DNA of 64,000 nucleotides from an uncultured Methanobrevibacter sp. (GTDB lineage: Archaea > Methanobacteriota > Methanobacteria > Methanobacteriales > Methanobacteriaceae), in assembly GCF_902774605.1 (NCBI RefSeq), contig NZ_CACYJE010000003.1, positions 1 to 64,000 of the forward strand, given 5' to 3'. This document shows, one piece after another, positions 26,901-63,346 of this stretch; the stretch's first letter is position 1; every line of letters starts with the position of its first letter. Both the position numbers and the translations under genes were made by a program. The notes under the pieces were generated by a model. It was not told where the DNA came from. It made no database searches and was given only the letters and a program-made list of their open reading frames with translations.

Positions 26901-27260
26901 GCTGAAAGCATTCGTGCTGTGGATCAGCGTGGTGTTGTAGAGAAGGTATTGTCCTCTCACTTCCTGCCGGACATCATGGGTAACTCCAGGGCATTTTCCA
27001 AGCAGAAGGTGCGGTGCACCAAGTGCGGTGCGAAGTATCGCCGTATGCCTTTGACCGGCAAGTGCAGGTGCGGAGGAAATCTTATCCTGTCTGTTTCCAA
27101 GGGTTCTGTTACTAAGTATCTTGAGATTTCAAGGGATTTGGTTAATCGTTATCCTGTTTCCCATTACTTGGAGCAGCGTTTGGAGATTCAGGAGTTCGGT
27201 ATCAACTCATTGTTTGAAAGTGACAAGTCTAAGCAGAGTTCGTTGGACGTGTTCTTCTAG
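23964..27260 (+). CDS. polC: DNA polymerase D large subunit DP2
   Basis: Catalytic subunit of the euryarchaeal replicative polymerase. It has the expected CTNPECG...CPKCG zinc motif around residue 628 and CTKCGAKY...CRCGG near 1018. The conserved NCDSDEDAVMLLLDALINFSK is intact and no intein interrupts it. An Asp/Ser-rich insert (DDSSDSDDDSDV) lies near residue 283. ATG 23964 starts the family text MDYFDRLEAE; the frame extends 18 codons further with no support. 1098 residues is normal. The partner DP1 is not in the window. Confidence 0.95.
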   Translation: MDYFDRLEAETNHLYEIANKARSRGLDVETETEVPLAKDLAERVEGLVGPEGVAKRIKELETDMDRESVAFEIAAEIASGKFPLTGEKANWNEEQRCDQGLRSALAILTEGVVAAPLEGISDVKIKENFDGTKYIGVYFAGPIRSAGGTAAALAVLLGDKIRRAINIDAFKPIDDEIERYVEEVELYESEVTNLQYSPTPEEVRFAANHIPVEVSGEQTDQVEVSHRDLERVETNNIRGGALLAMVEGVIQKSKKIHKISKKLGLDWEWLSEYSKPKKDDSSDSDDDSDVVSEPKYIQDIIGGRPILGYPSEKGAFRLRYGRSRNTGLATMGVHPATMALLEFLAVGTQLKIEYPGKGNCVVPVDSIEGPTVKLKNGDVLILNSVKKAREVKKDVVEILFLGDMLVAFGEFLRNNQPLYPSGWVEEWWIQLLMRSDKFDKDNTDLDLHALEYDYLPAVEAFKLSKDYDIPLHPKYTYCYNDVTIQDLNNLIDLIEKAKPDYTPGGELKLDLSYQKRVLEVIGVPHIVREGKIIIDKDHSYSLLVTLSASLPEMKTTLEAVNSVSPVKIINKAPAYIGTRVGRPEKSKERLMRPAPHGLIPIGNNGGARRLVATAAKKGSIKVDISRRKCTNPECGISSFGSLCPKCGHPTEMGKPSEKSIPLASMLKKASDNVKVRRVDEVKGVVGMISESKLPEPIEKGILRAKHEVFTFKDGTIRHDSTDLPLTHFIPREIGVTVEKLLEMGYEKDCYGNPIENEDQIIELRVQDIVISDNCGEYLKRTAQFIDDELVRYYDMEPFYNVKEKEDLIGHLVGGLAPHTSAAVLGRIVGFTKALGCYAHPYFHSAKRRNCDSDEDAVMLLLDALINFSKTYLPNTRGGSMDAPLVLSSRIDPEEIDDESHNLDIFERFPVEFYEKTYSPLKPAEVLEYIDNVEMHLGTPQQYEGLMFSHHTSNIHAGPTVCLYKRLPSMREKVEAQIALAESIRAVDQRGVVEKVLSSHFLPDIMGNSRAFSKQKVRCTKCGAKYRRMPLTGKCRCGGNLILSVSKGSVTKYLEISRDLVNRYPVSHYLEQRLEIQEFGINSLFESDKSKQSSLDVFF

Positions 27261-27281: not shown

Positions 27282-27339
27282 TTGGATTATTCTTTTTTAT
27301 TATTATCAATATAATAAATTTCATAGTACATGAAGAATG

Positions 27340-27366
27340 TTCGATTCAAGACGAACGATTTATATA
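27340..27366 (+). promoter_or_regulatory. MsvR-type box plus TATA, distal nrdD promoter
   Basis: TTCGATTCAAGACGAA (27340-27355) has TTCG and CGAA arms spaced by 8. It is followed directly by CGATTTATATA, a TATA box. This box-plus-TATA unit is repeated 55 bases on. As I recall, MsvR of methanogens recognises TTCG-N7-9-CGAA repeats; a V4R regulator of that type is at 62373-63143. Confidence 0.6.
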
Positions 27367-27394
27367 CTATGAGAATCTAAGTATTAAGTAGATG

Positions 27395-27421
27395 TTCGTA
27401 TTAATACGAACGATTTTTATA
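27395..27421 (+). promoter_or_regulatory. MsvR-type box plus TATA, proximal nrdD promoter
   Basis: TTCGTATTAATACGAA (27395-27410) is a perfect 16-bp palindrome, followed at once by CGATTTTTATA, the best TATA box for nrdD. A protein on this box would block TBP/TFB access. A second hairpin, GAGAGG/CCTCTC (27451-27466), lies in the predicted leader. Confidence 0.65.
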
Positions 27422-27450
27422 CATGTGACGACAAATATTAAACCAGTTGA

Positions 27451-27466
27451 GAGAGGCCACCCTCTC
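27451..27466 (+). other. Short hairpin in the nrdD leader
   Basis: GAGAGG-CCAC-CCTCTC: six perfect pairs and a 4-base loop. It lies about 45 bases before the nrdD ribosome-binding site. It may be a leader stem-loop; no known family. Confidence 0.35.
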
Positions 27467-27519
27467 GAAAATTGGATAATGAAAATTTTTAATAAACTAA
27501 GGAAAATGGTGTGAATTAA

Positions 27520-29838
27520 ATGGAAAAAATTTCAGAATTAGGAAATAATATGAATGAAACCGTTAAAATTAACGTAGAGAAAAATAACGGTATTAAAGAA
27601 AGATTCAGCTATGAAAAATTAGTAAAATCATTAGTGATGGTGGAAACCCCATTCTTTGAATCTGATAAAATCATCGCAACAGTAGTGTCCCAGCTATACG
27701 ACGGAATCAAAACCAAGGAAATCAAGAAAATCGTGCACGAATGTCTAGAAGACATCGACCCTGAAATCGCAAACAAATACCTGGCAAGCACACAATTAAA
27801 AGTAAGAACCTCAAGAGACACTATTGAAGCATTCGACTTATCAAGAATCGCTAACACCTTGATTGAAGAAACCGGTGCTAGCCAAGAAACAGCTTTCGAA
27901 ATCGCTACAGAAACTTGGAAAGAACTCAAGAAGCTAAACGTGGAATACCTGACCGCACCAATGATTAGGGAAATGGTCAACACAAAACTCATAGAATACG
28001 GACTGGAAGACTTAAGAAGCCGCTACACCCGTTTAGGAATCCCTGTATACAACATTACATCCCTTATCGAAAACGGTAACAGGGACAACGCAAACATGAT
28101 ACACAACCCTGAAAGTATCCACAAGCACGTAGCAGACGAAGCATTGAAACAATATGCATTACTTAAAATGCTGCCAGGACACCTAGCAGACGCACACATG
28201 TCAGGGGACATTCACATTCACGACTTAGAATTCTTCGCTGGAAGACCAATGAACTGTCTCCAACACGACATAAGAACATTCATCAAATACGGACTCAAAG
28301 TTGATGGAACAGGAGACCACACCTCAATTGCAGGTGCACCAAACCATATGGAAACCTTGATGAACCATACCGGTGAAATCATGCTTGCAGCACAACAGAA
28401 CATGTCCGGAGGACAATCAATGTCCCTTTGGAACGTATTCGTTGCACCATTCGCAAGAGGAAGAACCTATGATGAAATCAAACAGGCCGTGCAGATGCTC
28501 GTATACAACCTAAACATGGCATACGCAGCACGTGGATCACAAGTTCCATTCACAAGCATGGCATTGGAATTCGGTGTTCCTGACTTCCTGAAAGAAGAAA
28601 CCGCATACGGACCAAAAGGTCAAGTTGTTGGAACTTACGCTGACTTTGAAGAAGAAACCAGATTAATCCAAAGAGCATTCACTGAAACATTGCTTGCAGG
28701 TGACAATGAAGGTAAACCTCACTTATTCCCAAATACTATCTACACATTAAGACCTGAAACAATGACCAGTGAATACGAAGATGACTTAAGACTAGTTCAC
28801 GAACTATCCGCAAAATACGGCTCATCATACTTCGTGAACATGTTCCCTGAATACCGTGGCAAAATGGCAAACTACATGGGATGCAGAACATGTCTACAGG
28901 ACACATGGACCGGCGACTGGGACAAGGACTGCTTAAGAACAGGTAACCTTGCATACGTCACCTTGAACTTCCCAAGAATCGGATACCAATCCAAAGATGA
29001 AACCCAAGTCTTTGAATATCTCGACGAATACATGGACCTTGCAGTTGAAACATTAATGCTTAGAAGAGAACAAGCATTAAAATGCCTAAACGATTTCCAC
29101 ATCCTGCCGTTCCTAAAACAAAAAGTCGGAGAAGAATCATACTACAGAATTGAAAACTCAACATTATCCTTCGGATTCGTTGGATTGAACGAAATGCTGT
29201 TATCACTCTTCGGCGAAGGAATCGAAAACCCAGACGCTAACAAGTTCGGTGTAAAATGTCTCGAATACGTAAACGACAGGGCTAAAAAACTACAAGAGGA
29301 AACCGGCCTCAGATGGAGTGTACTTCAAACTCCTGCTGAATCAACCGCTTACAGATTCGCAACCCTTGACAAGAAACAATTCGGCGATCAGGCAATCGTA
29401 CAAGGTGAAGGAAACGCTAACTACTACACAAACTCATCTCACGTACCAGTAGACACAGGAGCTTCACTCATTGAAAAAATCAAAATCGAAGAACAATACC
29501 ACAGCTTAACCCCTGGTGGACACATCTTCCATGCATTCATGGGCGAATCATACTCAGATCCTGACTCATTAATGAGCTTAACCCACAAGATTGCTAAAAA
29601 ATCCGATATCGGATTCTGGGCTTACAGTTCAGCTTTAAGCTTCTGTCTAAAATGTAAAACATTAATGAAAGGATTGAACAATGTATGTCCTACCTGCGGT
29701 GAGAAAGAAGATGTGGAATGGTATGACCGTATCACCGGTTACGTCCAACAAGTCGGCCGTGCAAAATCCGCATCCGGTGGTTGGAACCCAGGTAAACGTC
29801 AAGAGTTAATTGACAGAAGAAGATTCGAAGATAACTAA
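27520..29838 (+). CDS. nrdD: Anaerobic ribonucleoside-triphosphate reductase
   Basis: Class III, oxygen-sensitive glycyl-radical enzyme that makes deoxynucleotides. The first about 95 residues and the next about 90 look like two ATP-cone modules (KERFSYEKLVKSLVMV, then TSRDTIEAFDLSRIANTL), the sites of dATP control. The C-terminus has the zinc ligands CLKCKTLMKG...CPTCGE (about 708-726) and the glycyl-radical region RITGYVQQVG (Gly about 741). 772 residues. GGTGTG lies five bases before ATG. The activator NrdG is not in the window. A hairpin over the stop ends the gene. Confidence 0.96.
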   Translation: MEKISELGNNMNETVKINVEKNNGIKERFSYEKLVKSLVMVETPFFESDKIIATVVSQLYDGIKTKEIKKIVHECLEDIDPEIANKYLASTQLKVRTSRDTIEAFDLSRIANTLIEETGASQETAFEIATETWKELKKLNVEYLTAPMIREMVNTKLIEYGLEDLRSRYTRLGIPVYNITSLIENGNRDNANMIHNPESIHKHVADEALKQYALLKMLPGHLADAHMSGDIHIHDLEFFAGRPMNCLQHDIRTFIKYGLKVDGTGDHTSIAGAPNHMETLMNHTGEIMLAAQQNMSGGQSMSLWNVFVAPFARGRTYDEIKQAVQMLVYNLNMAYAARGSQVPFTSMALEFGVPDFLKEETAYGPKGQVVGTYADFEEETRLIQRAFTETLLAGDNEGKPHLFPNTIYTLRPETMTSEYEDDLRLVHELSAKYGSSYFVNMFPEYRGKMANYMGCRTCLQDTWTGDWDKDCLRTGNLAYVTLNFPRIGYQSKDETQVFEYLDEYMDLAVETLMLRREQALKCLNDFHILPFLKQKVGEESYYRIENSTLSFGFVGLNEMLLSLFGEGIENPDANKFGVKCLEYVNDRAKKLQEETGLRWSVLQTPAESTAYRFATLDKKQFGDQAIVQGEGNANYYTNSSHVPVDTGASLIEKIKIEEQYHSLTPGGHIFHAFMGESYSDPDSLMSLTHKIAKKSDIGFWAYSSALSFCLKCKTLMKGLNNVCPTCGEKEDVEWYDRITGYVQQVGRAKSASGGWNPGKRQELIDRRRFEDN

Positions 29839-61671: not shown

Positions 61672-62376
61672 ATGGTTAAAAAAGGAAAACTAATCGGAAT
61701 CGGTGTTGGTCCCGGCGACACTGAATTATTGACCCTTAAAGCGGCAAGGGTTTTGAAATCAGTGCCTGTCGTGTTTTCACCGAAATCATCTAAGGAAAAA
61801 GAGAGCATAGCATTATCAATAGTGAGGCCTGTGCTTGAGGAAAGAAAGGATTATAAGAGATTGATGCTCGTTGAGCCAATCTTCCCTATGATTGAGGATA
61901 AGGATGAGCTTGAAAAGATTTGGAGCAATGCGGCTGAAATGATTGCCCAGTACCTGGACAGCGGAAGGGATGTTGCCTTCATCACCCTTGGCGACACTTC
62001 AATCTTCAGCACCTATTCTTATGTTCAAAAGAAGCTCTTCGGCAGGTATGAGATTGAGACAATTCCTGGAATCACATCATTCACCGCATGTGCGGCTGCA
62101 AGGAACAAGGCTCTTGTTGAGCAGAATGACATCCTCACCATCGTTCCTAAGATTGATGACAGGCTGGAGAATGTTCTTGAGTATAGTGATTCTGTAGTTC
62201 TCATGAAGGCTTCAAGAAACACCAGCGATTTGGAAGCGACTATTGAAGCTAAAAACAGGCCTAAGGAAATCTATTCAGTGCAGAATTGCACTCGTGAAAA
62301 TGAAAAAATAATTGAAGGCTTTTCCAATGAAAAACCTTACCTGACAACCACCATCATTAAGTTCGATGATGACTAG
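61672..62376 (+). CDS. cbiL: Precorrin-2/cobalt-factor II C20-methyltransferase
   Basis: Tetrapyrrole methylase of the cobamide (vitamin B12-type) pathway, needed for the corrinoid of methyltransferase Mtr. IGIGVGPGDTELLTLKAARVL at the N-terminus, VAFITLGDTSIFSTYSY and IPGITSFTACAAA are family landmarks. 234 residues. ATG 61672 after GTGAT. Its last 4 bases overlap the end of the convergent V4R regulator. Confidence 0.93.
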   Translation: MVKKGKLIGIGVGPGDTELLTLKAARVLKSVPVVFSPKSSKEKESIALSIVRPVLEERKDYKRLMLVEPIFPMIEDKDELEKIWSNAAEMIAQYLDSGRDVAFITLGDTSIFSTYSYVQKKLFGRYEIETIPGITSFTACAAARNKALVEQNDILTIVPKIDDRLENVLEYSDSVVLMKASRNTSDLEATIEAKNRPKEIYSVQNCTRENEKIIEGFSNEKPYLTTTIIKFDDD

Positions 62377-63143
62377 TAGTTCTTGATGTGTTGAGGTTCT
62401 ATCTCAAACACACACTTCTCATCACCCATTGTGTAGCATTGGGTTTCTATGACGCTTACCGGCAGGTTGAAGAATTCTGTGAATAACCCTTCGAATATTC
62501 CTGTGTCCAGAAAGCAGGCAGGCTTTCCTGTTCTTGGCAGGAGCTGGCATTCGAAGCAGTCGTAAGTGGTGATTTTTATGATTTGACCGATTTTATAGGT
62601 CATTCTTCCCAGCCCTTTTGTCTGCCAGAATTCTGCTATGTTTTCCATGAACACGTCAAGGTCCTCATCGTACATCTTGTCGAAGATTGACCTTCCGATG
62701 CTGTTTCCTGTGGATTGCAGGATCGGGTCGATGTTTACTCCTTCCTGTATGAGCATTGCCTTCAGGGTGTGGAATAGCAGTGTTGAGAATTCGGCGTCCT
62801 CATCTACTATGTTTTCTATGAGGTAGTTGGATTGGGTCTGCTCTATTTCCTTAGGTTCGGATATGTTTACTGAGCCGATGTATTTTGAGTTGAGGTAGAA
62901 TATTTTTTTACGGTTGTCGACGGGATGGACTCGATAGGAGATTATTCCGTTTTCCCGCAGGCTTTTCAAATGAACTGAAACTGTGGATTTTGATTTTCCG
63001 GTGTTGTTGACGATTTCATCAAATTCCATGTCTCGATCTCTAAGCATTTCTAGTATTGTCAGTTTTACTGGACTTTTTACAACGTTGACCCCAATGTTCT
63101 CGTTGAGGTTGGAAAAAATCTGTATCGGTTTTTTTTCGCTCAT
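62373..63143 (-). CDS. msvR: HTH-V4R redox regulator (MsvR-like)
   Basis: 256 residues. N-terminal winged HTH, ArsR-like (residues about 25-85: LTILEMLRDRDMEFDEIVNN and TGKSKSTVSVHLKSLRENG). C-terminal V4R domain with C196, C199, C210, C236 and C244 (CFECQLLPRTGKPAC ... CYTMGDEKCVFE). This is the design of MsvR, the methanogen-specific regulator whose Cys sense oxidation and relieve DNA binding. GGGGGAT precedes the ATG. Matching box sequences lie at nrdD (27340, 27395), and a related palindrome is upstream of itself at 63281. Confidence 0.75.
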   Translation of the reverse strand: MSEKKPIQIFSNLNENIGVNVVKSPVKLTILEMLRDRDMEFDEIVNNTGKSKSTVSVHLKSLRENGIISYRVHPVDNRKKIFYLNSKYIGSVNISEPKEIEQTQSNYLIENIVDEDAEFSTLLFHTLKAMLIQEGVNIDPILQSTGNSIGRSIFDKMYDEDLDVFMENIAEFWQTKGLGRMTYKIGQIIKITTYDCFECQLLPRTGKPACFLDTGIFEGLFTEFFNLPVSVIETQCYTMGDEKCVFEIEPQHIKNY

Positions 63144-63280
63144 TACTAATATCCCCCAATATATATAGTTTAATTTATATTTTATTGATTAATAAAGTTA
63201 TCTGAAAATTAAAAATTAATCAAAAATATAATAAAAATGATAATTATTGAACAATTATAAAAATTAAATAAACAAAAAAT

Positions 63281-63293
63281 ACGAACTGTTCGT
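63281..63293. promoter_or_regulatory. 13-bp palindrome ACGAACTGTTCGT upstream of msvR
   Basis: Perfect palindrome about 140 bases upstream of the msvR start; a further TTCGT lies at 63313-63317. It has the same CGAA/TTCG half-sites as the nrdD boxes, but in the opposite order (CGAA-N3-TTCG). Autoregulation is plausible. Confidence 0.4.
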
Positions 63294-63346
63294 TTAAATA
63301 CATATAAAATAGTTCGTGCAATTAAAACATTCCACCATGGCGAACA

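Follow-up and report, generated by a model that had tools for sequence, protein, structure and literature searches.

In an uncultured Methanobrevibacter sp., nrdD, the only ribonucleotide reductase (RNR) gene found in the genome, is preceded by two tandem units, each composed of an MsvR-type TTCGN8CGAA box and a TATA element. These boxes are no chance occurrence, either at the scale of the genome or at that of the genus, and their assignment to MsvR over two tandem nrdD promoters, as proposed in a preliminary description of the same DNA, is well supported by comparison among related genomes. The analysed window is a stretch of 64,000 nucleotides (64 kb), in which the boxes and TATA elements sit between nrdD (from 27520) and a gene named from its sequence as the DNA polymerase II large subunit (ending at 27260). 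Coordinates of the features are collected in Table 1.

Table 1. Predicted and identified features of the nrdD, msvR and fpaA loci. Positions refer to the window unless a contig (C3) is indicated.
Feature	Position	Strand	Remarks
Distal operator (predicted), GTTCG-ATTCAAGA-CGAAC, 18-mer GTTCGATTCAAGACGAAC	27339..27356	+	inverted repeat with asymmetric core
Distal TTCG-N8-CGAA box, 16-mer TTCGATTCAAGACGAA	27340-27355		followed by CGATTTATATAC
TATA element of distal nrdD promoter, TTTATATA	27359..27366	+	3 bp past the 16-mer, 2 bp past the 18-mer
Proximal operator (predicted), GTTCGTATTAATACGAAC	27394..27411	+	
Proximal box, 16-mer TTCGTATTAATACGAA	27395-27410		perfect palindrome; followed by CGATTTTTATAC
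TATA element of proximal nrdD promoter, TTTTTATA	27414..27421	+	3 bp past the 16-mer, 2 bp past the 18-mer
Predicted hairpin	27443..27475	+	near where the proximal nrdD transcript is expected to start; z = -5.0 (window sequence)
nrdD	27520..29838	+	anaerobic (class III) ribonucleoside-triphosphate reductase, 772 aa
msvR	62373..63143	-	256-aa HTH + V4R redox regulator; NF053755, 308 bits (cut-off 220)
Everted half-sites in msvR promoter, CGAACAGTTCGTA	63280..63292	-	
Half-site plus TATA in msvR promoter, CGAACTATTTTATA	63303..63316	-	same module as at nrdD
fpaA, F420H2 oxidase	C3:73093-74316		~10 kb from msvR; 81% identity to the gene next to msvR in G009

Both boxes lie where the preliminary description had placed them (27340 and 27395, the latter a perfect palindrome), and the TATA text noted directly behind each was recovered as the two listed elements. 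The proximal 16-mer is an exact match to the published MsvR box, TTCGTAN4TACGAA, which adjoins BRE/TATA and mediates repression in the reduced state (PMC3729527), and the distal box fits the looser TTCGN7-9CGAA form. The BRE of the distal promoter would overlap the end of the distal box. Further downstream, the predicted hairpin consists of GAGAGG-CCAC-CCTCTC within CCAGTT..AATTGG. A hairpin was also present in the same position in 50 further genomes of the genus whose nrdD leader is long, its sequence varying by clade and its stem being kept (GAGAG..CTCTC; GATAG..CTATC in the millerae-like clade), with a median z of -2.1 and z < -2 in 27 of the 51. No Rfam match to a known leader RNA at nrdD was obtained.

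Within the 64-kb window two such sites are unremarkable, as at least two TTCGN8CGAA matches occurred in 17 of 100 shuffles (17%), and the evidence of the preliminary description alone was therefore thin. The genome-wide tests, carried out as pattern searches, included the TTCGN8CGAA search that had been suggested there: the pattern was found 7 times in the 2.14-Mb genome, versus 35 times for the reversed control pattern, and two of the seven sites are the nrdD pair, located 55 bp apart in one intergenic region. The strict form TTCGTAN4TACGAA was found once in the 2.14 Mb, at 27395. The module CGAACNATT(N0-2)TATA was present at both nrdD units, in the msvR promoter, and at one further site, which was rejected as a promoter, being inside a coding sequence. 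The half-site/TATA pattern (CGAACNATTN{0,2}TATA) was composed with the msvR promoter already in view, so the msvR match was not blind, and the informative part of this search is the genome-wide rarity of the pattern.

Absence of the boxes from the nrdD promoters of close relatives had been named in advance as the observation that would speak against the proposal. Of 59 genomes of the genus, 58 carry TTCGN8CGAA upstream of nrdD, with a spacing of N8 without exception, and the sole genome without a box (G062) is fragmented. The perfect form was found in 34 and two boxes in 36 of the 59 genomes. In the family, the strict TTCGTAN4TACGAA is usually single per genome where present, and nrdD adjoins it in 25 of the 29 other loci inspected. 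The matches listed for GTTCGN8CGAAC include 69 in 35 genomes of the genus; of these, 53 were at nrdD, and all 35 genomes had the motif there.

Across 49 distinct nrdD upstream contexts, the flanking G and C were almost invariant and the core was mostly free, with mostly 0.2-0.6 bits per column in the upstream flank; the eight letters TTCG/CGAA were invariant, partly because the contexts were chosen for containing a near-consensus box. The distance from box end to TWTATA was 3-5 bp in every relative in which TWTATA was found. As judged from the alignments, this conservation pattern is the one left by a dimeric DNA-binding protein acting at a promoter.

On the NrdD tree the boxes arise in the gut clade; lineages associated with termites (M. 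cuticularis, M. curvatus, M. filiformis, Methanovirga, and others) lack them. The second box unit characterises the thaueri-like clade, with one loss, and all box states were accommodated on the tree by 4 changes, versus 25 in shuffles. Two box-plus-TATA units, 103 bp apart, also precede nrdD in the 2,937,203-bp genome G019, so that the tandem arrangement may have an earlier origin or may have evolved twice.

Apart from those at nrdD, the GTTCGN8CGAAC sites inspected in the genus resembled terminators, lay in coding sequence, or were intergenic palindromes specific to a clade, and one secondary site, in G037, has a TATA-like element. TTCGN8CGAA was located near an isopropylmalate/isocitrate-dehydrogenase-like gene in three genomes (L007, G000:C95:2151-2166; L010 in G008; L295 in G042), in two of which a HEAT-repeat gene lies opposite the dehydrogenase-like gene; this locus is a possible second conserved target. 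Recurring palindromes resembling the MsvR box, such as GTTCGATACAATACGAAC, were also observed (L156, L159; also L147, L148, L162); they look like hairpins or terminators, and those of L156 and L159 are bordered by A/T runs. Similar palindromes occur in the interval separating a gene for a Cdc48-like ATPase from a dehydrogenase gene.

The MsvR-like V4R regulator reported at 62373 proved to be MsvR according to NF053755, the curated equivalog model for this protein. It comprises an ArsR-type HTH_5 domain (residues 24-70) and a V4R domain (190-250); in the latter C210, C236 and C244 are invariant in the alignment, and C196 and C199 are present in addition. Compared with the MsvRs of more distant genera, the protein retains the V4R cysteines and the residues of the recognition helix. 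Presence or absence of MsvR was useless as a discriminator within the family, with 138 of 139 genomes matching at E ≤ 0.001. In six more distant family genomes (G009, G133-G137), all seven GTTCGN8CGAAC sites were located in the intergenic region upstream of msvR, facing fpaA or an hcp-like gene, and one of them (L245, GTTCGATTTATATCGAACAATATATATATA) is arranged, like the nrdD units, as a box plus TATA. MsvR is named as the binder mainly because the motif accompanies msvR independently of nrdD in these distant genera, and on this ground we infer, with good support, that it binds the nrdD boxes. The TTCGN8CGAA sequence alone is insufficient for binding, since MaMsvR did not bind such a site in the rpoK coding region (PMC3729527).

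A point beyond the preliminary description is the everted half-site arrangement at the organism's own msvR and fpaA promoters. In the genus of the window, the half-sites of these two promoters stand back to back (CGAACAGTTCGTA, TACGAACAWTTCGTA) and do not form the N8 palindrome. Everted CGAACANTTCGTA was found twice in the genome, at msvR and at fpaA (C3:72988, 9 kb past the window). At fpaA the everted TACGAACATTTCGTA (C3:72988-73000) directly precedes the TATA; a second fpaA homologue is located at C71:8-1030. The same half-site is thus used in two geometries, inverted with N8 at nrdD and everted at msvR and fpaA; recognition of both falls either to a single MsvR or to more than one factor. 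A second MsvR-like gene of this genome (G000:C45:11447-12145, 254 bits) carries an in-frame TAA. Second copies, intact in some relatives, are over the cut-off in about one quarter of the genus, and for this reason do not account for the near-universal nrdD box.

The class I/II RNR family (PF02867) had no match in this genome and matched in 2 of 139 family genomes; with its absence from 137 of 139, a class I/II enzyme as another source of dNTPs was ruled out. The usual RNR repressor is NrdR. TIGR00244 gave just a 20-bit match in this genome, far under the cut-off of 124.65, and NrdR was over the cut-off in 2 of the 139 family genomes; owing to this near-absence it was excluded as a common regulator of nrdD. 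An RNR gene with tandem palindromic boxes near its promoter recalls the NrdR-controlled RNR operons of bacteria, with control being putative here; unlike MsvR, however, NrdR is a nucleotide sensor with a different box.

In the reduced state, known MsvR proteins occupy their boxes and exclude TBP/TFB, and oxidised MaMsvR releases the DNA (PMC3729527). As far as Karr 2010 is relayed in PMC3729527, the MthMsvR system at PmsvR/fpaA of Methanothermobacter thermautotrophicus shares with the present locus the box consensus TTCGTAN4TACGAA, a location over or beside BRE/TATA, more than one box, and an HTH + V4R regulator with V4R cysteines. The targets given there are oxidative-stress genes and msvR itself, whereas here the putative target is nrdD with two tandem box-plus-TATA units. 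MaMsvR of Methanosarcina acetivorans, an autoregulating and only distant relative, likewise has at PmsvR an inverted TTCG..CGAA upstream of the TATA, with AT-rich flanks, and blocking of the BRE was proposed there (Isom 2013, PMC3729527). MaMsvR tolerates N7-9 in vitro (PMC3729527), whereas the nrdD boxes are always N8. No paper linking MsvR to an RNR gene was found in the freely readable literature, in line with the preliminary description, which knew of none for nrdD; nrdD would thus be a new target of a known regulator, in an unusual tandem layout.

The reading that we consider probable is that the tandem nrdD promoters carry MsvR operators at which reduced MsvR dampens transcription, and that oxidation raises nrdD together with fpaA and msvR. 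An MsvR dimer with its V4R cysteines reduced would bind GTTCG-N8-CGAAC, the downstream half-site of each operator abutting or overlapping the BRE/TATA of its promoter, and would hinder TBP/TFB, so that both promoters are dampened. Oxidation of the cysteines would release or reshape MsvR, and the increased transcription of nrdD would supply fresh NrdD in place of enzyme that has lost its glycyl radical to oxygen. Binding, repression and redox direction at nrdD are here transferred from the known systems, and the direct redox repression suggested by the preliminary description is retained as the putative mechanism. Since it is the reduced form that represses according to the known logic, nrdD should rise under oxidative stress and not be shut off. 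In reduced cells, steady repression of the only RNR would need to be partial.

Expression data from a lauric-acid treatment of M. ruminantium M1 bear on this direction. In that study (PMC5816558), nrdD was up (log2 1.47), as were fprA1 (1.37), fprA2 (3.58) and the rubrerythrin gene rbr2 (1.27); in total 147 of 2280 genes were changed, hcp was down, and no msvR was recognised among those changed genes named in the part of the paper considered. These values point modestly toward derepression of nrdD together with oxidative-stress genes.

The opposite sign of control is unlikely, although it retains some weight: the boxes would be MsvR sites, and MsvR would activate or tune nrdD, e.g. by aiding TBP/TFB from a site immediately 5' of the BRE, or would repress when oxidised. 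Then nrdD would be kept up under reducing conditions and shut down upon oxidation. A site just upstream of BRE/TATA is also known to fit an archaeal activator, and NrdD is needed by the cell while it is reduced; moreover, MthMsvR binds DNA in either redox state with differing effects (PMC3729527). The geometry, however, is that proposed for box B of MaMsvR, which was read as BRE blocking (PMC3729527), and nrdD rose with the fprA and rubrerythrin genes in the one data set (PMC5816558). It is improbable that the nrdD boxes belong to another regulator sharing the half-site, i.e. a second MsvR-like or other HTH protein, with MsvR itself using the everted sites. The two operator geometries in the genus and the second MsvR-like gene of some genomes would suit such an arrangement, but in other genera the N8 form is characteristic of the msvR locus, NrdR is almost absent, and the second MsvR, limited to about a quarter of the genus and interrupted in this genome, stands against a near-universal box.

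We attach hardly any probability to the palindromes being transcript hairpins, terminators of the upstream polymerase gene, or products of chance, and not operators. The proximal palindrome could fold and has a T5 behind it in this genome, and in the genus a small number of N8 sites away from nrdD resemble terminators (L156, L159). However, it is the TATA and not the T-run that is conserved, the stem letters are invariant rather than co-varying, and the asymmetric distal box is unable to form the same hairpin. Chance is opposed by conservation in 58 of 59 genomes with diverged flanks, against ~0.15% expected per 450 bp (estimated from the genome count).

A wider proposal, which we regard as tentative and rather doubtful, is that MsvR has been re-aimed in gut Methanobrevibacter, the inverted N8 operator marking nrdD and the everted half-sites serving the oxidative-stress genes. 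If so, nrdD would be a main high-affinity target, the N8 operator having gone from the msvR/fpaA locus; one thiol-sensing dimer would read two operator geometries, with a distinct response through each, and the synthesis of DNA precursors would rank among the chief outputs of oxygen sensing.

An MsvR-type operator at the nrdD promoter is shared by nearly all of a genus that is dominant among the methanogens of gut and rumen, which touches on the question of how strict anaerobes synthesise DNA after exposure to oxygen when their only RNR is destroyed by it. The nrdD boxes suggest that in gut methanogens the supply of DNA precursors is tied to the oxidative-stress response, and the MsvR regulon would, if the preferred reading of redox-relieved repression is true, reach from oxidative-stress genes to DNA-precursor supply.
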